NCBI RefSeq assembly: GCF_007859075.1
Contig: NZ_VOAK01000011.1
Location: 248,001-312,000 of the forward strand
Length of the DNA stretch: 64,000 nt
Origin: Gemmobacter aquaticus
GTDB taxonomy: Bacteria > Pseudomonadota > Alphaproteobacteria > Rhodobacterales > Rhodobacteraceae
Reading direction: 5' to 3'
Below are positions 1 to 15,588 of the stretch, piece after piece (the stretch's first letter is position 1; each line of letters begins with the position of its first letter). The notes under the pieces were generated by a model, which was given only the letters and a program-made list of their open reading frames with translations, searched no databases and was not told where the DNA came from. The translations under genes and the position numbers were made by a program.

Positions 1-826
1 TGATCGCCGCGCCCGCATCGCTGGGGATGACATCGGCCAGCACCGGAGCCTCGGATTCATTGGCCACGGCCAGACCGAAGCTTTCCTGATGATAGCGGCT
101 CATGTCATAGCCGAGGGCGTTCAGCATGTCGCGCACGGCCTGCATGAAGGGCTCGGGCCCGCAGCAAAAGACCTCTCGGTCCAGATAATCGGGTGCCATC
201 AGACCCAGCATGATCTGATTGAGCCGCCCGCGATAGCCGGGCCAGGTGCGGAAGGGGTCAGGCTGGCCCACCGTGAAGCGCAACTGCAATCCCGGCACCC
301 GGTTGGCGAACTGCTCCAACCGTTCGCGGAACAGGATCTCGGACGGCCTCTTGGCGGAATGGACAAAGACGATGTCCGGCATTTCGCCCGAATCCCAGGC
401 CCAGGTCGTCATCGACATCATGGGCGTGATGCCCGTTCCGGCCGAGATGAAGAGGTATTTCCTGGCCTTGTGCTTGTGCGACGTGAAGATGCCATTGGGG
501 CCGTAAGCCTTGATCTTCATTCCCGGCTTCAGGTGATCCAACATCCAGCGCGTGCCGATCGATCCCGTCTGCGCCTTGGCCGTGATCGAGATCGACAGCG
601 GGCGCGAGGGGCTGGACGAGATGGTGTAGGTGCGCTGCACGTTGCCGCCCGGAACCGGAAGATCCAGCGTCAAGAACTGGCCAGGCTGATAGTCGAACCA
701 CGCGCCCGAAGGCGCGCGGAAGGTGAAGGTGGCGGTGTCGGTGGTTTCCGGCACGATCATGGCACATTCCAGCAACTCGCTGTCGTTCCATGGCTCAGCC
801 GACCAGTTGGCGCGTGTCTGTCCCAT
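1..826 (-). CDS. gbcB: Flavin/NAD(P)H reductase subunit of a Rieske monooxygenase (GbcB-like), 3' part outside the window
   Basis: About 275 codons are visible; the gene runs off the left edge. The start at 826 lies 3 bases after the stop of the oxygenase gene, so the two are co-transcribed. Visible parts are an FNR-type FAD domain with the FAD motif RTYTISSSP near residue 65, then a nucleotide-binding domain with SAGTGITPMM near residue 128 and FCCGPEPFMQAV near residue 220. In this family a C-terminal plant-type [2Fe-2S] ferredoxin domain follows; it would lie beyond the edge and cannot be confirmed. Such reductases pass electrons from NAD(P)H through FAD and the iron-sulfur centre to the partner oxygenase. 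The assignment to glycine betaine demethylation rests mainly on the neighbour; carnitine, stachydrine or another quaternary amine remains possible. Confidence 0.85.
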   Translation of the reverse strand, partial: MGQTRANWSAEPWNDSELLECAMIVPETTDTATFTFRAPSGAWFDYQPGQFLTLDLPVPGGNVQRTYTISSSPSRPLSISITAKAQTGSIGTRWMLDHLKPGMKIKAYGPNGIFTSHKHKARKYLFISAGTGITPMMSMTTWAWDSGEMPDIVFVHSAKRPSEILFRERLEQFANRVPGLQLRFTVGQPDPFRTWPGYRGRLNQIMLGLMAPDYLDREVFCCGPEPFMQAVRDMLNALGYDMSRYHQESFGLAVANESEAPVLADVIPSDAGAAI

Positions 827-2068: not shown

Positions 2069-2177
2069 CTGATCCTCGCTGACCCTGCGCCTCCCCGCGC
2101 CGGGCGTTCCTGTTGGTCGGCAGGCAGCGACCGGGGGACCGCCTCCACGCGGGTCCGGCCACGGGCCCTGCCGTGGT

Positions 2178-2345
2178 TGATGTCGGGCTGGTTTCCGGGC
2201 TGGGGAAGCGGCCTGGCAGGCCACCTGAGGCACCTTCCCGGGTTGCCCCAGTGGCTTTTGCCGCAGTCTTCCGTCACCGTTGCGGGGGCAGCGCCGGTCT
2301 TGCACCGGCTTCCCAATTCTCCGCCTGATGGGCGGCACCTGACGC
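2178..2345 (-). promoter_or_regulatory. Cobalamin (B12) riboswitch upstream of the gbcA-gbcB operon
   Basis: Read on the minus strand, the leader carries the hallmark blocks of the cobalamin aptamer in order: AGGTGCC, then GGGAAGCCGGTGCAAGACC, then GGCGCTGCCCCCGCAACGG, then GCCACTGGGGCAACCC, GGGAAGGTGCCT (pairs with the opening AGGTGCC), and a B12-box-like block GCCCGGAAACCAGCCCGACA at 2181-2200. It ends about 110 bases before the gbcA start. Downstream are GC-rich hairpins (CCACGG..CCGTGG at about 2159-2176, and a second one) without a U-run, so control at the level of translation or a Rho-dependent step is more likely than an intrinsic terminator. Cobalamin binding normally lowers expression of the downstream genes. 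Confidence 0.9.
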
Positions 2346-2422
2346 CCTGACCGTAAGACGAAAGCGACATGCGTGATGTGCGTTTTGCGACATTGCGGGC
2401 AGCAAATGCGGTGCGGGCGAAA

Positions 2423-3019
2423 TCAGCGGCGCGGGAAGGGGCGTGACAGGCTGGCGGCACCCTCGGCGCCGAAACGCCATGGCCAGTCGGTCGCGCGCGA
2501 GATGCCGATGCGCGGCCCGACAAGCAGGGGCAGGCGCTGGCCAGTGACGATCTGGAAGTCCTCTGCGCCAAACGGCCGCCCGTCATCTGCGCCAGTGATC
2601 CCCATAGCCTGAGCAAGCCGCCCCGGACCAGCTGCGATCCTTGGCCCGGTCTGGCCCCGGCGGCTTTCCATCAGCGCCTGCCCTTCGACCGGGGCGAGCG
2701 CCCGCAAAAGAACCGCCTCGCCACGCTGGCAGACCACGTTCAGGCACCAGTGGATGCCGTAGCTTCGATAGACATAGGCGTAGCCGGCGGGGCCGAACAT
2801 CGTGGCGTTGCGTGGCCGTGGGCCTGAAAAGCTGTGCGAGGCGGGATCATCGCGGCCATAGGCCTCGGTTTCGGTGATGATGCCCGTGCAGGGGCCGATC
2901 CGTAGCTGTGCGCCGATCAACTCTGGTGCGACGGCAAGGGCTGGCCTGTCAAAGTAGTCCGCCTGCAATGGCGGCTCTCTGGTCAGATCAGCGTCGCGAT
3001 CAGCGTGGCCCAAAGGCAT
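2423..3019 (-). CDS. mpg: 3-methyladenine DNA glycosylase (AAG/Mpg family)
   Basis: A 198-residue protein if started at the ATG at 3019. It excises alkylated purines (3-methyladenine, hypoxanthine) to start base-excision repair. The family core is clear: LIGAQLRIG near the N-terminus, the catalytic-glutamate segment ITETEAYGRDDPASHSF, then MFGPAGYAYVYRSYGIHWCLN and VLLRALAPVEG. The start is uncertain: the chosen ATG has GGAGG directly abutting it, the frame stays open upstream to 3166, and a TTG just before LQADYFDRP is also possible. The domain itself begins about 25 residues after the chosen start. Its stop lies about 78 bases before the riboswitch, and it is on the same strand as gbcAB. 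Confidence 0.88.
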   Translation of the reverse strand: MPLGHADRDADLTREPPLQADYFDRPALAVAPELIGAQLRIGPCTGIITETEAYGRDDPASHSFSGPRPRNATMFGPAGYAYVYRSYGIHWCLNVVCQRGEAVLLRALAPVEGQALMESRRGQTGPRIAAGPGRLAQAMGITGADDGRPFGAEDFQIVTGQRLPLLVGPRIGISRATDWPWRFGAEGAASLSRPFPRR

Positions 3020-3063
3020 CCTCCGAGCAGTATGGCCGGGAGGATCCACCATCCGGCCATCAT
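2983..3063 (-). CDS. Candidate 26-residue hydrophobic peptide overlapping the start of mpg
   Basis: An ATG at 3063 opens a 26-codon frame ending in TGA at 2983-2985. The peptide starts MMAGWWILPAILLGG and is almost entirely hydrophobic, so it would form a single membrane-spanning helix. It overlaps the glycosylase start in another frame. No strong ribosome binding site is visible (CTGG only), so translation is unproven. It may be chance, although hydrophobic composition without charged residues is unusual for a random frame here. Confidence 0.22.
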   Translation of the reverse strand: MMAGWWILPAILLGGCLWATLIATLI

Positions 3064-3588
3064 CCAGACTGTTGTCGTAACATGTGCAATGTTTCTGGAC
3101 ATCGGTAGGGGCCAAAGTTTGGGACTTTGATTCAGAGTCCGCTCGATTGTCCGATTTCGTCAACAATGCATCGTCGCTTCCGGCGATTTTATGCCGCTTG
3201 AGAAAGAAAGATCTTCAATGGGTTACCGGAAGTTTCTCACCCATTTTGCAGCTGCGAAAGGTCGGCGGGGGCATTGTGTGCATTTTGAAGGTTTAAAATA
3301 ATGCTGTACCGTGTGGTGCCTGCGGGTGCGCTTGCATAGATATAGTGGCACTTTTTCCATTTTGGAAACGAATGCCCCGACTCTCGTCCTGCAACCTACC
3401 TTCGGTGCTGCGGTGCGGCATGGGGTGGGGTGCATGTGCGACCTGTGCGGGGTGATGCAGGATTGCCGCGGTGCAACTGCCCGTAAATCGGGCGTCGCGC
3501 GGATATGGGCCGAATCGACGGCGATGCACGGGGCTGGACGCCGGCCTGCCGCGCAGGGATGATGCCAAGATAACGAACGGGGGGCAGC
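3064..3588. other. Intergenic region, AT-richer than its surroundings, no convincing gene
   Basis: Between mpg and the SDR gene. The part from about 3110 to 3370 is clearly less GC-rich than the rest of the window. It contains a perfect 6-bp inverted repeat TTTCCA-TTT-TGGAAA at 3354-3368, just downstream of a TATAGT box (3341-3346), which could be an operator at a promoter for the SDR gene. A 36-codon frame at 3191-3301 (starts MPLEKERSSMGYRKF) exists but has no clear ribosome binding site and no recognised relatives. I assign no gene. Confidence 0.4.
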
Positions 3589-4398: not shown

Positions 4399-4980
4399 AT
4401 GGCCAGTGCGATCGACCCCGCGATTCCCACCCTGCGCCCTGCCCGTGTGCATGAGGTGACCGGGCCGGGGGCTGTGGTCTTTGCGCTATGTCAGGCGGCG
4501 GGGCTGAAGGGTCCTGTCCTGTGGCTGACCCCTGATCACTGGCCCGAAGCGCTGTTTCCCACCGGGGTGGCCCGCCTGCTGCCGCCTGGGCGGCTGATCA
4601 CCGCGACCGCACCCTCCGAGGTGGAACTGCTGTGGGCGGTGGAAGAGGGGCTGCGCTCGGGCGCGGTCGGGCTGGTCGTGGCGCGGCTGGACCGGCCCCT
4701 TGGTTTGACGGCGGGGCGGCGGCTGCAACTGGCCGCCGAGTCGGGCCGGGTAACCGGGCTGATGATCGTGCGTGAGGGTGCGGGCAGCCCGGCTGCGGAA
4801 ACGCGCTGGACCTGCACGCCCGAGGCGGCAGAGGACTCGACTCGGATGCGTTGGTCGCGTATCAAGAACAAAAAGGGAACATGTGGGGAATGGCAGGTGA
4901 GTCTGCATGGGACGTCGCATTCTGTCACTGTGGTTTCCGCGACTGGCCAGCGAGCGGTCGCTGCGCGAGAGGGGGGCTGA
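4399..4980 (+). CDS. imuA: ImuA, RecA-like accessory protein of the SOS mutasome
   Basis: A 193-residue protein with degenerate RecA/SulA-like character (VVFALCQAAGLKGPVLWLTPDHWPE; SEVELLWAVEEGLRSGAVGLVV). ImuA works with ImuB and DnaE2 in damage-induced translesion synthesis, and in related bacteria it is needed for DnaE2-dependent mutagenesis. The 3' end overlaps imuB by 74 bases in another frame. The C-terminal segment (GEWQVSLHGTSHSVTVVS) still looks like genuine ImuA, so the overlap seems real rather than a frameshift. A LexA box lies immediately upstream. Confidence 0.85.
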   Translation: MASAIDPAIPTLRPARVHEVTGPGAVVFALCQAAGLKGPVLWLTPDHWPEALFPTGVARLLPPGRLITATAPSEVELLWAVEEGLRSGAVGLVVARLDRPLGLTAGRRLQLAAESGRVTGLMIVREGAGSPAAETRWTCTPEAAEDSTRMRWSRIKNKKGTCGEWQVSLHGTSHSVTVVSATGQRAVAAREGG

Positions 4981-6406
4981 GGGGCCCTTCGCGCTGGTGC
5001 TGCGCGCGGGCAACCGGGACCATCTGCATTGCCTGAACCCGGCGGCCGAGGCGCGGGGGCTGCAACGTGGGCTGGCGTTGGCCGATGCGCGGGCCTTTTG
5101 CCCTGATCTGGTGACCCGGCCGGCCGATCTGGCAGCCGAGGCGGGGTTTCTACGCGCGCTCTGCCGCTGGATGGAACGCTATGCACCCTTTGTGGCCCGC
5201 GAAGGCGCAGATGGGCTGGTGGCCGACATCACCGGGGTGGCGCATCTCTTTGGCGGCGAGGCTGCGCTGCGCGCCGATCTGACGGCACGGCTGGCGCGGG
5301 CGGGGCTGACGGTGACGGCTGGTATCGCGGGCACCCGTGGTGCGGCGCATGCGCTGGCCCGCCATGGCGGCGGGATCGCCGCAGCAGGGGCCGAGGGGGC
5401 GGCCTTGCGTCCGCTTCCCGTATCGGCGCTGCGGCTGGACCATGATACGGTCGAGGGCTTGGGCCGGCTTGGGCTGAAGCGCATCGGCGATCTGATGGGC
5501 CTGCCACGCGGTCCGGTTGCGCGGCGCTTTGGGCAGGGGGTATTCCTGCGGCTGGATCAGGCGCTTGGCGCCTCGGCCGAGCCCCTGTCGCCTGACCGGG
5601 CCGAGCCGCATTTCGGCGTGCGCATGGCCCTGCCCGAGCCGATCGGGCTGCTGCGCGATGTCGAGGCGGGGCTGCTGCGCCTGCTGGTCCGGCTGTGCGC
5701 GGCGCTGGCCCGGCATGAGGCAGGCGCGCGCCGCCTGCGACTGGAGATGCGGCGGGTCGACAGTTCCGACGCAGTGGTCGAGATCGGGCTGGCCCGGCCG
5801 ATGCGTGATCCGCAGCGTATTCTCGCCCTGTTCCGCAAGGGCATCGACGAGGTGGATTCGGGCTTCGGGATCGAGCGGCTGCGCCTGACCGCCCCGCTGG
5901 TCGAGCCGCTGCCGCCTGAACAATATGGCCGGCCCCGTCCCGCCGGGGATGAACCTCTGGCTGATCTGGTCACCCGGCTGGGCAACCGGCTGGGCTTTGG
6001 CCGCATCCGTGTCTTTCACCCCGAAGACAGCCATATCCCCGAGCGCAGCTTTTCCAGCCGCCCTTTCGCCAGCCTGTCGGCGGCAACGGCACAGCCGGGC
6101 GCCCCATGGCCCGTGGGGGCAGAGCGTCCGGTCACGATTTTTGCGCCCGAGCCCGTCTTTCCCGCGCCCGAGATTGCGGAAGGGCCGGTCACCCCGCCTG
6201 CGCGCTTTGTCTGGCGCCGGATGCAGATGGCGACCGCCCGCGCCACGGGGCCAGAGCGTATCGCACCCGAATGGTGGAGCGATGATCCGGCCTGGCGCGG
6301 CGGCCTGCGCGACTACTGGAAGGTAGAGACGCGGCAGGGGCGGCGGTTGTGGATGTTCCACACGCCACAGGCGCCGGGCTGGCATGTGCAGGGGGAATTT
6401 GCATGA
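4907..6406 (+). CDS. imuB: ImuB, catalytically inactive Y-family polymerase homologue
   Basis: A 499-residue DinB/UmuC-fold protein. The N-terminus reads RRILSLWFPRLASERS where active Y-family polymerases carry the metal-binding Asp residues, and the second catalytic motif (normally S-x-D-E) reads VADITGVAHLFGG. Both catalytic motifs are therefore lost, as is typical of ImuB. ImuB acts as a hub that links DnaE2, ImuA and the beta clamp. The thumb and little-finger regions are recognisable (VEGLGRLGLKRIGDLMGLPRG). AGGTGA precedes the ATG at 4907. The stop overlaps the dnaE2 start as ATGA. Confidence 0.92.
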   Translation: MGRRILSLWFPRLASERSLRERGAEGPFALVLRAGNRDHLHCLNPAAEARGLQRGLALADARAFCPDLVTRPADLAAEAGFLRALCRWMERYAPFVAREGADGLVADITGVAHLFGGEAALRADLTARLARAGLTVTAGIAGTRGAAHALARHGGGIAAAGAEGAALRPLPVSALRLDHDTVEGLGRLGLKRIGDLMGLPRGPVARRFGQGVFLRLDQALGASAEPLSPDRAEPHFGVRMALPEPIGLLRDVEAGLLRLLVRLCAALARHEAGARRLRLEMRRVDSSDAVVEIGLARPMRDPQRILALFRKGIDEVDSGFGIERLRLTAPLVEPLPPEQYGRPRPAGDEPLADLVTRLGNRLGFGRIRVFHPEDSHIPERSFSSRPFASLSAATAQPGAPWPVGAERPVTIFAPEPVFPAPEIAEGPVTPPARFVWRRMQMATARATGPERIAPEWWSDDPAWRGGLRDYWKVETRQGRRLWMFHTPQAPGWHVQGEFA

Positions 6407-9400
6407 AACCGGGCTATGCCGAGCTTTGCGTCACCTCGAACTTCACCTTCCTGACCGGGGCCTCGCACCCGGAAGAACTGGTGGCGCGCGCGGCCGAACT
6501 GGGGCTTGCCGCCATCGCCATTACCGACCGGAACTCACTGGCCGGGGTGGTCCGGGCGCATGTGGCATTGCGTGAACTGGCCCGCGCGCAGGCCGAGAAT
6601 GCGGCGACCGGAGGAGCAGAGGTGCGTGGACAAAAGCGGCAGGACCCCTCCAGCCGCCAGATCTCGGGCGGGGTGCGGCTGCCTGTGCCCGAGGCGCCCC
6701 TGCCACGGCTGATCATCGGCGCGCGACTCGTGCTGCGCGACACGCCAGTCGAATGGCTGGCCCTGCCCACGGATCGCCCGGCCTATGCCCGGCTGTCGCG
6801 GCTGATCACGCTTGGCCGGCGGCGCGCGGCCAAGGGCGATTGCGAGTTGCGACTGGCCGATCTGCTTGAGGGGGGCGAGGGGCTGGTCTTCATCGCCCTG
6901 CCGCCCGACCCGCTGGTGGGTCAGGTCAAGGGCGACCCCGGAGCCATATCCCGCATGGCGCGGACCTTTCCGGGGCGGCTCTATCTTGGGGCAGTGCCGC
7001 GCTATGACGGGCAAGACCAGCACCGTCTGGCCGCATTGGCGCAGATGGCCGACCGGGCGGGCCTGCCCATGGTCGCGGCGGGCGATGTGCTGATGCACCG
7101 GGCCGCCCGCCGGGCGCTGGCCGATGTGCTGACCTGCCTGCGTGAAGGCTGCACCCTGGCTGAACTGGGCCGCCGCGCCCTGCCCAATGCCGAGCGCCGC
7201 CTGAAGACGGCGGCCGAGATGACCCGGCTCTTCCGCCATTACCCCGAGGCGGTGGCCCGCACGCTGGAGGTGGCGGCGCGGTGCCGGTTCAGTCTGGACG
7301 AGCTGAGCTATGAATACCCCGATGAGGCGGGCGATGGTGGTGCCGAACCCGCCCAAGCCCGGCTGGAGCGACTGGTGGCCGAGGGGCTGGAAGACCCCGC
7401 ACGCTATCCAGACGGGGTGGATGGGGCGATCCGGGCACGGGCGGCGCATGAGCTCGATCTGATCCGCCGCATGAACTATGCACCCTATTTTCTGACGGTG
7501 CATGATCTGGTGGTCTTTGCCCGCGGGCGCGGCATCCTGTGTCAGGGGCGCGGTTCGGCGGCCAATTCGCTGGTCTGCTATACGCTGGGTGTGACCGAGG
7601 TGCCGCCCGGAACCACGCTGATGGTGTTTGAGCGTTTCATCTCGGAAGAACGCGGCGAGCCGCCCGACATCGATGTGGATTTTGAGCATGAGCGGCGCGA
7701 GGAGGTGATCCAGCACATCTATGACCGCTATGGCCGCGACCGGGCCGGGCTCACGGCGACGGTGATCCATTTCCGCGGCCGGGCGGCGGTGCGCGAGGTG
7801 GGCAAGGTCATGGGTCTTAGTCAGGATGTGCTGGCTGCCATTGCGGGGCAAAGCTGGGGCTGGTCGTCCAGCCCGCCCGATCCGGGACGGTTGCGCGAAC
7901 TGGGGCTTGATCCCGCCGACCGGCGGCTGGCGCTGACCCTGCGGCTGATCGCCGAGATCATCGGCTTTCCGCGGCATCTGTCGCAGCATGTGGGTGGCTT
8001 TGTCATCACCCGTGGCCGTCTGGACGAGCTTTGCCCGATCGAAAACGCCACGATGGAGGGGCGCACGGTCATTGAATGGGACAAGGATGATATCGATGCG
8101 CTGGGCATCCTGAAGGTGGATGTGCTGGCGCTTGGCATGCTGACCTGCCTGCGCAAGGCGTTCGACCTGCTGGCCGCGCATGAACGCCGGCAGGTCAGCC
8201 TGTCCGCCATGCGCGATGAGGACCCGCGCGTCTATGACATGCTCTGCCGGGCCGATGCGGTGGGGGTCTTTCAGGTGGAAAGCCGGGCACAGATGAATTT
8301 TCTGCCCCGGATGCGGCCACGCTGCTTTTACGATCTGGTGATCGAGGTGGCGATCGTGCGCCCCGGCCCGATTCAGGGCGGGATGGTCCATCCCTTCATC
8401 CGCCGCCGCAACGGGCAAGAGGCGGTGGAATGGCCGTCCGAGGCCTTGCGTGGCGTGCTGGGGCGCACGCTTGGGGTGCCCTTGTTTCAGGAGCAGGCCC
8501 TGCAGATCGCAGTGGTGGCCGCGGGCTTTTCTCCGGGCGAGGCGGACCGGTTGCGCCGCAGCCTTGCCACCTTCCGACGTATGGGCACCATCGGCGGCTT
8601 CCGCGACAGGTTCATCGACGGGATGCTGGCCAATGGCTATGACGCCGATTTCGCAGCCCGCTGCTTTGCCCAGATCGAGGGGTTTGGCGAATACGGCTTT
8701 CCCGAAAGCCATGCCGCGAGCTTTGCCATTCTGGTCTATGCCTCGGCCTGGATGAAGTGCCACTACCCGGCGGTCTTTGCCTGCGCGCTGCTCAACAGCC
8801 AGCCCATGGGGTTTTATGCCCCCGCGCAGATCGTGCGCGACGCGCGCGAGCATGGGGTGGAGGTGCGGCCCGTCTCGGTCAACCACTCGTTCTGGGACAA
8901 CACGCTGGAGCGGCGGGGGGACGGGGCGCTGGCACTTCGGCTTGGTTTCCGGCAGGTCAAGGGCATCGGGGCCGAGGATGGGGCCTGGATTGCCGCGGCG
9001 CGGGGCAACGGCTGGCCTGACGTCGAAAGCCTGTGGCGCCGGGGCGGCATCCGCGCCGAGGTGCTGGAACGGCTGGCCGAGGCGGATGCCTTTTCCTGCA
9101 TGGGGCTGGGTCGCCGCGCGGCCCTGTGGGAGGTGCGGGCCCTGCGCGCGCCCCGTCCGCTGCCGCTGTTCGAGCCTGCCGATGGCGAGGGGCTGGCAGA
9201 ACCCGCCGTCGCCCTGCCCGCCATGTCGCAGGGAGAGCAGGTGGTCGAGGACTATCTGTCCACCCGGCTCAGCCTGCGGGCCCATCCGCTGGCCTTGATG
9301 CGTGCAGGCTTGCCGGGCGTTCTGCCGCATGACCGGCTGGGGGCTGCGCGCGGACGTGTCACGGTCTGCGGGCTGGTCATCACCCGGCAGAGGCCTGGAA

Positions 9401-9753
9401 CGGCCTCGGGCGTGATCTTCCTGACACTGGAGGATGAGACCGGCGTTTCAAACATCGTGGTCTGGCCCAAGGTCTATGAACGCTTCCGCCGCGCGGTGAT
9501 CGGCGGGCGGCTGCTGCGCGTCACGGGCCAGATCCAGCGCGAGGGCGAGGTGATCCACCTGATCGCCTGGCAGATCGAGGATATGTCGGAACGGCTGTCT
9601 GACCTTGGCGCCCCGCCGGGGGGCGGCCTTGACCCGGCCCGCGGTCGCGCCGATGAGGCCCGCCCGCCGATCATCGCGCGCGGCACCCCGACCCGCGCGC
9701 GGCACCCGCGCGATCAGGCAAAGGTGCTGTTTCCAAGCCGGGACTTTCACTAG
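6403..9753 (+). CDS. dnaE2: Error-prone DNA polymerase DnaE2 (ImuC)
   Basis: A 1116-residue C-family polymerase. The N-terminal PHP domain starts YAELCVTSNFTFLTGASHPEE; the PHP metal-binding histidines of DnaE1 are partly replaced, as is usual in DnaE2. The palm carries PDIDVDFEHERR, with the catalytic aspartates near residue 425. The C-terminal OB-fold (VTVCGLVITRQRPG..) ends in a basic Arg-rich tail. It is the translesion polymerase of the SOS mutasome. The ATG at 6403 has GGGGGA upstream and overlaps the imuB stop by 4 bases, so translation is probably coupled. An insertion of about 30 residues near residues 60-95 (Gln/Arg-rich) sits in the PHP domain. Confidence 0.95.
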   Translation: MKPGYAELCVTSNFTFLTGASHPEELVARAAELGLAAIAITDRNSLAGVVRAHVALRELARAQAENAATGGAEVRGQKRQDPSSRQISGGVRLPVPEAPLPRLIIGARLVLRDTPVEWLALPTDRPAYARLSRLITLGRRRAAKGDCELRLADLLEGGEGLVFIALPPDPLVGQVKGDPGAISRMARTFPGRLYLGAVPRYDGQDQHRLAALAQMADRAGLPMVAAGDVLMHRAARRALADVLTCLREGCTLAELGRRALPNAERRLKTAAEMTRLFRHYPEAVARTLEVAARCRFSLDELSYEYPDEAGDGGAEPAQARLERLVAEGLEDPARYPDGVDGAIRARAAHELDLIRRMNYAPYFLTVHDLVVFARGRGILCQGRGSAANSLVCYTLGVTEVPPGTTLMVFERFISEERGEPPDIDVDFEHERREEVIQHIYDRYGRDRAGLTATVIHFRGRAAVREVGKVMGLSQDVLAAIAGQSWGWSSSPPDPGRLRELGLDPADRRLALTLRLIAEIIGFPRHLSQHVGGFVITRGRLDELCPIENATMEGRTVIEWDKDDIDALGILKVDVLALGMLTCLRKAFDLLAAHERRQVSLSAMRDEDPRVYDMLCRADAVGVFQVESRAQMNFLPRMRPRCFYDLVIEVAIVRPGPIQGGMVHPFIRRRNGQEAVEWPSEALRGVLGRTLGVPLFQEQALQIAVVAAGFSPGEADRLRRSLATFRRMGTIGGFRDRFIDGMLANGYDADFAARCFAQIEGFGEYGFPESHAASFAILVYASAWMKCHYPAVFACALLNSQPMGFYAPAQIVRDAREHGVEVRPVSVNHSFWDNTLERRGDGALALRLGFRQVKGIGAEDGAWIAAARGNGWPDVESLWRRGGIRAEVLERLAEADAFSCMGLGRRAALWEVRALRAPRPLPLFEPADGEGLAEPAVALPAMSQGEQVVEDYLSTRLSLRAHPLALMRAGLPGVLPHDRLGAARGRVTVCGLVITRQRPGTASGVIFLTLEDETGVSNIVVWPKVYERFRRAVIGGRLLRVTGQIQREGEVIHLIAWQIEDMSERLSDLGAPPGGGLDPARGRADEARPPIIARGTPTRARHPRDQAKVLFPSRDFH

Positions 9754-14691: not shown

Positions 14692-15588
14692 ATGGCACGG
14701 ATTACGCTGCTGGACGGCGGCATGGGACAGGAACTCGTCAACCGGTCGGGCGACGAGCCGACGAACCTGTGGGCCACGCGGGTCATGATCGATCACCCGG
14801 ATCTGGTCCGGGCGGTGCATGACGACTATTTCGCCGCCGGTGCCACGATTGCGACCACGAACACCTATGCGATCCACCATGATCGTCTGAGCCGCTTTGG
14901 CCTTGATGACCGATTTTCCGAGCTGCATCACGCGGCAATTGCGGCGGCCGTTCAGGCGCGCGCGGCCCATGGATCGGGGCGTGTCGCAGGGTCCATCGGC
15001 CCGCTGGTCGCCAGCTACCGTGACGACGTGGTGCTGCCTGTCGATGAGGCCGCGCCAAAGGTGGCAGAGATCGCGCAGCTTCTGGCCCCTGAGGTTGATT
15101 TCATCCTGCTGGAAACGCTCTCCACCCTCGCGCAGGCCGAAGGTGCGCTGAAGGGGGCCGTCACGGCGGGGCGGCCGGTCTGGCTTTCGGTCTCGGTGCA
15201 TGATCGCAAGGGGCACCTGCTGCGATCGGGCGAACCGCTTGAAGACCTGCGCCCGCTGGTCGAGGCCTATCAGCCCGCCGCCGTGCTGGCCAACTGTTCG
15301 GTGCCCGAGGCGATGGGCGATGCGCTGGCGGTTCTGAGCGGCTTCGGGCGACCCTATGGGGCCTATGCCAATGGGTTCACCCATATCTCCGACGGATTTC
15401 TGGAGGATGCGGCGACTGTGCGCGAACTGACGCACCGCCATGACCTGACGCCCGAGAAATACGCAGATTTCGCCATGGGCTGGGTTGCGCAAGGGGCCAG
15501 CATCGTCGGCGGCTGTTGCGAGGTCGGTCCTGCCCATATCGCCGAGTTGGCGCGCCGCCTGCGCGCCGAAGGACACGAGATCGTCTGA
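14692..15588 (+). CDS. Homocysteine S-methyltransferase family protein (B12-independent)
   Basis: A 298-residue TIM-barrel methyltransferase of the Hcy-binding family (LLDGGMGQEL at the N-terminus). Zinc ligands are C202 (ANCSVPE) and C275/C276 (VGGCCEVGP). Family members transfer a methyl from S-methylmethionine, SAM or betaine to homocysteine to give methionine; the sequence alone does not tell the donor. There is no cobalamin-binding module. The stop overlaps the next start as TGATG. Confidence 0.87.
   Translation: MARITLLDGGMGQELVNRSGDEPTNLWATRVMIDHPDLVRAVHDDYFAAGATIATTNTYAIHHDRLSRFGLDDRFSELHHAAIAAAVQARAAHGSGRVAGSIGPLVASYRDDVVLPVDEAAPKVAEIAQLLAPEVDFILLETLSTLAQAEGALKGAVTAGRPVWLSVSVHDRKGHLLRSGEPLEDLRPLVEAYQPAAVLANCSVPEAMGDALAVLSGFGRPYGAYANGFTHISDGFLEDAATVRELTHRHDLTPEKYADFAMGWVAQGASIVGGCCEVGPAHIAELARRLRAEGHEIV

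Follow-up and report, generated by a model that had tools for sequence, protein, structure and literature searches.

Cobalamin riboswitches precede genes for the B12-independent forms of methionine synthase and ribonucleotide reductase, according to the sections of PMC2770081 and PMC3766115 cited here. In Ruegeria pomeroyi, betaine demethylation needs MtgC, a predicted cobalamin protein, and both MtgC and MtgD are required for methionine synthesis as well as for glycine betaine demethylation; these statements, the names MtgC, MtgE and DUF1638 for a set of corrinoid protein, homocysteine methyltransferase and DUF1638 protein, and the observation that bacteria with GbcAB but without MtgBCDE have MetH, are taken from the consulted portion of PMC12478193, in which the word riboswitch occurs only in a reference title. 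Demethylating Rieske enzymes constitute group Vb, in which an Asn replaces the aromatic residue of group Va, together with a Cys-X-X-Cys pair and His-His-Asp iron ligands (PMC7948474, in part).

The operon studied here lies at the beginning of the window, the whole 64,000-nt stretch of DNA that was analysed (Table 1). By Pfam, its oxygenase consists of Rieske and Ring_hydroxyl_A domains and its reductase of Fer2 and NAD_binding_1 domains; the reductase begins 3 nt after the oxygenase gene, an order that recurs in 72 of the 80 named loci of the second survey (see below), including all 25 of those with a riboswitch. The identification as gbcA-gbcB in the preliminary description stands insofar as GbcA and GbcB are the best NCBIfam matches (517 and 372 bits), but both scores miss the respective cut-offs of 670 and 500 bits; all nine related oxygenases that were scanned fell below the GbcA cut-off as well, including the Sinorhizobium meliloti gene beside stc4/stc3, and the name gbcA is best regarded as provisional. 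The group Vb features N198, C201, C204, H203, H208 and D359, at positions mapped from the Cys pair, were found in 80 of 80 rows examined. By family, the oxygenase is a predicted quaternary-amine demethylase, and its candidate substrates are betaines, whether glycine betaine, proline betaine or some other. Membership of the operon in a B12-synthesis cluster was considered and rejected: the next gene past the reductase is LamB/YcsF-like and lies on the opposite strand, and no cob genes were seen by reading the 12.5 kb of locus L011; nor were B12-synthesis genes seen, again by reading, around the operon. In genome G071 (loci L046 and L146), the demethylase gene is broken by an in-frame stop after 144 codons. 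Further along the window (4399-9753, plus strand), three overlapping genes resemble, by reading, an imuA-imuB-dnaE2 mutagenesis cassette.

Table 1. Coordinates of the demethylase operon, its leader and related features at other loci.
Feature	Position	Strand	Evidence
Cobalamin riboswitch aptamer	2169..2357	(-)	RF00174, 97 bits; own model R1, 161.9 bits (R1 built from 17 survey 1 leaders, this leader included)
Spacer from aptamer to start codon, presumed expression platform, without terminator-like site	2069..2168	(-)	Sequence and pattern scan; putative function
Rieske quaternary-amine demethylase (predicted), oxygenase subunit (GbcA/Stc2 type, group Vb), 412 aa	830..2068	(-)	NCBIfam, Pfam and structure matches
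Reductase subunit (GbcB type), 357 aa, cut by window edge	1..826	(-)	NCBIfam GbcB; Pfam; complete in L011 7754-8827 (-)
Cobalamin riboswitches before nrdEF next to switched operon	L077 6010-6202; L153 3374-3557; G023:C22:384282-384481	(-)
OYE-like unswitched loci	L119, L120-L123, L126, L129, L131, L136, L140, L143, L148, L152, L167

The cobalamin aptamer that the preliminary description had recognised on the minus strand of the operon leader was recovered by the covariance model at full length (model positions 1-189 of 189; 97 bits against a gathering score of 31.5; E 6.1e-23), and this RF00174 element is the sole Rfam match above gathering score across the window (cmscan). The span originally given for it, 2069-2345, does contain aptamer, but takes in the 100-nt spacer and misses the first 12 nt of the 5' end. 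The 3' end of the aptamer is separated by these 100 nt from the oxygenase ATG (2068), and its 5' end lies 65 nt past the stop of a gene on the same strand that matches DNA-3-methyladenine glycosylase (2423-3166). In an alignment of 17 orthologous leaders, two-sided changes were seen in 24 of the 47 pairs of the RNAalifold structure, which was derived from this same alignment, and pairing holds in 95.4% of cells; neither value was matched by any of 500 shuffles. The presence of a real RF00174 element before the Rieske demethylase operon is confirmed; cobalamin binding and a change in expression are its predicted functions. It is one of five cobalamin riboswitches in the genome.

A pattern scan of the minus strand found no intrinsic terminator within the spacer (2069-2168); because no terminator is visible, the leader would probably act at the translation start or via Rho. 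When 26 leaders were folded singly, no consistent sequestration of the ribosome site emerged, and several lacked a clear ribosome site. An alignment of 13 of the 25 named-locus tails revealed two shared elements, GCGGGYGGCGGT directly behind the aptamer and, ahead of the ribosome site, a short C-G hairpin; the tail in the window is without the GCGGGYGGCGGT motif.

Of 199 genomes in the family (survey 1), 52 matched at E 1e-60 or better, and the orthologs, at E 1e-150 or better, amounted to 42 copies in 41 genomes. A riboswitch stands directly upstream of 17 of the 42 copies (hereafter switched), and an E-value scan with a flank of ~1.3 kb or more found none at the remaining 25; a cobalamin riboswitch is nevertheless carried elsewhere by 23 of the 24 genomes that have only an unswitched ortholog. 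The trait is clustered and changes at least seven times on a tree built from 41 intact orthologs plus three outgroup rows, with none of 500 shuffles yielding as low a number. MttB-family genes, found in 189 of the 199 genomes, are present in 17/17 switched vs 21/24 unswitched genomes (Fisher p 0.25, not significant); the corresponding figures for MtgC are 17/17 and 20/24 (Fisher p 0.13, not significant); in the MtgC search, 20 of 44 genomes, the window's genome not among them, showed an additional or sole match of MetH type (long frame, 32-37% identity). At least two MttB genes occur in 16/17 switched vs 11/24 unswitched genomes (p 0.002), and the median MttB gene number is 4 vs 1 (Mann-Whitney p 6e-5 without correction for shared descent, and with counts near or above 7 possibly being lower bounds). 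Three genomes (G041, G087, G197) have an ortholog without the switch and no MttB gene; their cobalamin riboswitches at other sites number 5, 2 and 3, respectively. The independent pairs of survey 1 point the same way and are not significant.

Survey 2, which overlaps survey 1, draws on 79 genomes and is restricted to the best 80 of 596 confirmed loci; a switch, detected with the model from the 17 survey 1 leaders, is located directly upstream of 25 of these 80, so that the leader recurs in relatives in both surveys, a check that the preliminary description had named. Decayed aptamers of ~32 bits by Rfam lie upstream of the demethylase gene at L099 (3761-3938, plus strand) and L149 (3688-3805, plus strand), and look as if the switch were under loss; of the 55 loci outside the switched set, 48 were scanned with Rfam, and no further upstream riboswitch emerged. 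Switched loci were found in, among other groups, Rhodobacter, Gemmobacter, Cypionkella, Ruegeria, Sulfitobacter, Phaeobacter and Loktanella, but also in Roseibium, Hoeflea, and MAGs labelled Mesorhizobium, Rhizobium and Rhodovibrionaceae. Among five plasmid relatives, those of Gemmobacter fulvus, Cereibacter azotoformans, Phaeobacter gallaeciensis and Ruegeria sp. TM1040 are switched and that of Paracoccus aestuarii is unswitched; a search limited to the five plasmids with the operon found no MttB gene on them. A SECIS_3 element (80.4 bits) was noticed at a Paracoccus locus (L105, 7062-7120, plus strand).

In survey 2, MttB genes occur in the genomes of 25/25 switched, 2/2 relic and 28/53 other loci; since 28 of these 53 unswitched loci sit in MttB genomes, MttB alone does not bring the switch. 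The switch is absent from all 25 named loci in MttB-free genomes (0/25). Paracoccus, which has 14 loci and no switch at any of them, accounts for 12 of the 25, and every one of the nine unswitched Rhizobium/Agrobacterium-clade loci is also among them; the switched Mesorhizobium and Rhizobium MAGs have 5 and 2 MttB genes. On 77 tree rows, a set that leaves out L146 (broken) and the relics L099 and L149, MttB and the switch are associated (Fisher p 4.7e-6), and a correlated-evolution test on the gene tree gave LR 13.4 (p 0.009); a refit gave LR 12.9, a value reached by none of 129 simulations under independence, after simulations of very different prevalence had been dropped. Independent pairs, six on the starred branches of survey 2, fell on average 1.9 times in the same direction and 0.0 times in the opposite one, which is not significant with so few pairs.

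The links seen in the gene neighborhoods of several switched operons are illustrations and do not amount to proof. Two Roseibium species, R. aquae and R. hamelinense, have the switched operon arranged divergently to genes resembling mtgC, DUF1638 and metF (the last two by reading); in Cereibacter azotoformans, it adjoins metH, cbiM and cbiQ. In G085, G023 and Marivivens niveibacter, it lies beside nrdEF for the class Ib, B12-independent ribonucleotide reductase (in G085 with 1190 bits vs a cut-off of 750, in the other two by similarity), and a second cobalamin riboswitch is found ~720 nt before nrdE, a gap that may hold nrdHI. Comparison of switched and unswitched loci in survey 2 showed no significant enrichment of mtgC, metH, DUF1638 or nrd genes nearby, and nrdEF lies near four unswitched Paracoccus operons as well. 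An OYE-like flavoprotein gene accompanies 14 unswitched loci vs 0/25 switched ones, all 14 of them in MttB genomes and 11 of them with a TetR-like gene (by reading); these are probably substrate-regulated catabolic clusters. A divergent LysR gene was found at 0/25 switched vs 4/55 unswitched loci, numbers too few to interpret.

The corrinoid-dependent genes that the preliminary description had pointed to are present in the window's genome, which encodes three MttB-family proteins, one of which (C1:1393139) matches 4YYC with 747.6 bits and the solved glycine betaine methyltransferase 9YCE with 417.6 bits. There are also three B12-binding proteins, one of them a stand-alone corrinoid protein whose gene forms a cluster with genes for a homocysteine methyltransferase and a DUF1638 protein. 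No other stand-alone corrinoid protein was found in the genome; this MtgC-like protein scores 201 and 177 bits for MtgC in NCBIfam, below the respective cut-offs of 370 and 310 bits. A MetE or core-MetE domain was not found in the genome by a search that was positive in 10 of 14 control genomes. A second gene of the homocysteine S-methyltransferase family lies in the window itself (14692-15588, plus strand; PF02574, 209 bits); its product might make methionine from a non-corrinoid donor.

We consider it probable that abundant cobalamin makes the switch lower the demethylase and that cobalamin scarcity releases it, and that the demethylase is a B12-independent alternative to the MttB/MtgB-MtgC route of the same genome, by which MtgC would be spared. 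In this scheme, plentiful cobalamin would cause the leader to lower expression of oxygenase and reductase, and scarcity would lift this effect; at low B12, O2 and reducing power would then be spent on demethylating a betaine-type compound, with formaldehyde as product, and the induced oxygenase would keep betaine use running. The scarce corrinoid protein MtgC, which would also serve a split methionine synthase, would be left for methionine. The earlier proposal that cobalamin chooses between an oxygenase and a corrinoid route gains support from the genomic pattern, as the switch was seen only in MttB genomes in both surveys and an mtgC-like gene stands back-to-back with the operon in the two Roseibium species. 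Since MtgC has a dual role in R. pomeroyi, and since it has a single stand-alone candidate in this genome, low cobalamin would set its two uses against each other; more tentatively, methionine synthase and betaine methyltransferases of these alphaproteobacteria may share MtgC and so compete for cobalamin, with the riboswitched Rieske demethylase as a corrinoid-sparing bypass that, as cobalamin falls, diverts betaine-type methyl groups away from the methyl-corrinoid/tetrahydrofolate route and into the oxygen/formaldehyde route.

The same regulatory logic could apply to a different shared substrate, either proline betaine (stachydrine) or another quaternary amine that is handled by a different MttB-family member; we regard this as a possibility of some substance, though not as the likelier case. 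The nearest solved structures to the oxygenase are 3N0Q (573 bits; a putative dioxygenase) and, at ~549-550 bits (549.6 for 3VCA), 3VCA and 4QUP, which we take to be stachydrine demethylase Stc2 and thus the closest enzyme of known function. A Sinorhizobium meliloti homolog that is 56.7% identical to the window enzyme adjoins genes annotated stc4 and stc3. The larger MttB complement of switched survey 1 genomes (median 4 vs 1, with counts above 7 possibly minimum values) fits such a different pairing, as do the varied substrates of the MttB family, with up to seven genes (PMC12478193, in the portion consulted). Stachydrine as the substrate is not assured, because 22 of 26 switched enzymes have Thr, and the other four Gly, at the position of the Stc2 substrate-contact residue Ala223 (PMC10952381, in part); in the window enzyme, the contact residue Trp353 is kept as Trp352 and Ala223 corresponds to Thr222. 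Furthermore, a single MttB gene is present in switched G105 (survey 1) and in L097, L103, L125 and L153 (survey 2).

A role of the operon in B12 supply appears unlikely: here, demethylation would yield glycine as a source of 5-aminolevulinate, along with one-carbon units for methylating the corrin, and would be turned off by the riboswitch once B12 suffices. Betaine feeding does raise B12 yield, and betaine is described as a methyl donor and as a stimulator of aminolevulinate precursors (PMC8123684 and PMC5282855, in part); the other four riboswitches of the window's genome precede, by reading, B12 or cobalt genes (DUF1636-like, BtuFCD-like transporter, cobalt transporter/precorrin methylase, and CobW/CobN genes). 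Yet B12 supply predicts no link to MttB, and the proposal is disfavoured because the switch is absent from the MttB-free genomes seen, namely the three of survey 1, which carry riboswitches elsewhere, and those of the 25 loci of survey 2. It is similarly improbable that the B12-dependent counterpart is methionine synthesis or a betaine-homocysteine methyltransferase step, with gbcAB induced at low B12 to meet C1 or redox needs: NCBIfam classes the MtgE-like protein as betaine--homocysteine S-methyltransferase (609 bits, cut-off 338) and metH adjoins the operon in Cereibacter azotoformans, G170 and G085, but such proteins outside SAR11 are argued to be MtgE subunits without betaine-binding residues (PMC12478193, in part), metH-like genes lie near unswitched operons too (G041, L096, L133), and absence of MetH does not track the switch (11/17 switched vs 11/24 unswitched, Fisher p 0.34).

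As to precedent, the preliminary description knew of no standard account of this pairing, and no report of a cobalamin riboswitch before gbcAB was found in searches of the open full-text literature. The main text of PMC3766115, as far as consulted, treats 15 Rhodobacterales genomes and has a class of 'isozymes of B12-dependent enzymes', and mentions no betaine, Rieske or dioxygenase; the pairing may possibly be listed without remark in its supplementary gene lists or in RegPrecise. If the more tentative reading, the corrinoid-sparing bypass, is true, the Rieske demethylase would join methionine synthase and ribonucleotide reductase as a third kind of B12-independent backup under a riboswitch, and would be, to our knowledge, the first in osmolyte catabolism. 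Glycine betaine is a major marine osmolyte; a cobalamin-switched oxygenase would tie the fate of its methyl groups, as methyl-tetrahydrofolate or formaldehyde, to B12 supply, and would explain why both routes are kept in many genomes.

Compared with the described systems, the window enzyme resembles Stc2 and GbcA of group Vb in its Rieske and catalytic domains, its Cys-X-X-Cys pair and the group Vb Asn (PMC7948474, in part); unlike in the Sinorhizobium stc locus, a cobalamin riboswitch takes the place of the annotated catabolic neighbours (stc4/stc3 and a LysR gene). The window's genome shares with Ruegeria pomeroyi, and its MtgBCDE and split methionine synthase, a set of MttB-family, MtgC-like, MtgE-like and DUF1638 genes; in contrast to the distribution outlined in the consulted portion of PMC12478193, a GbcAB-type oxygenase coexists here with MtgC-like genes and is placed under a cobalamin switch. 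As in the methionine synthase and ribonucleotide reductase cases (PMC2770081 and PMC3766115, in part), RF00174 stands before a gene that would do the job of a B12 enzyme without B12; the pairing fits this backup logic because the oxygenase needs no corrinoid and its counterpart does, and a candidate B12-dependent counterpart is encoded in the same genome, with MttB in 17/17 (survey 1) and 25/25 (survey 2) switched genomes. The difference from these isozymes is that the Rieske N-demethylase would constitute an alternative pathway, with formaldehyde rather than a methyl-corrinoid as its product.
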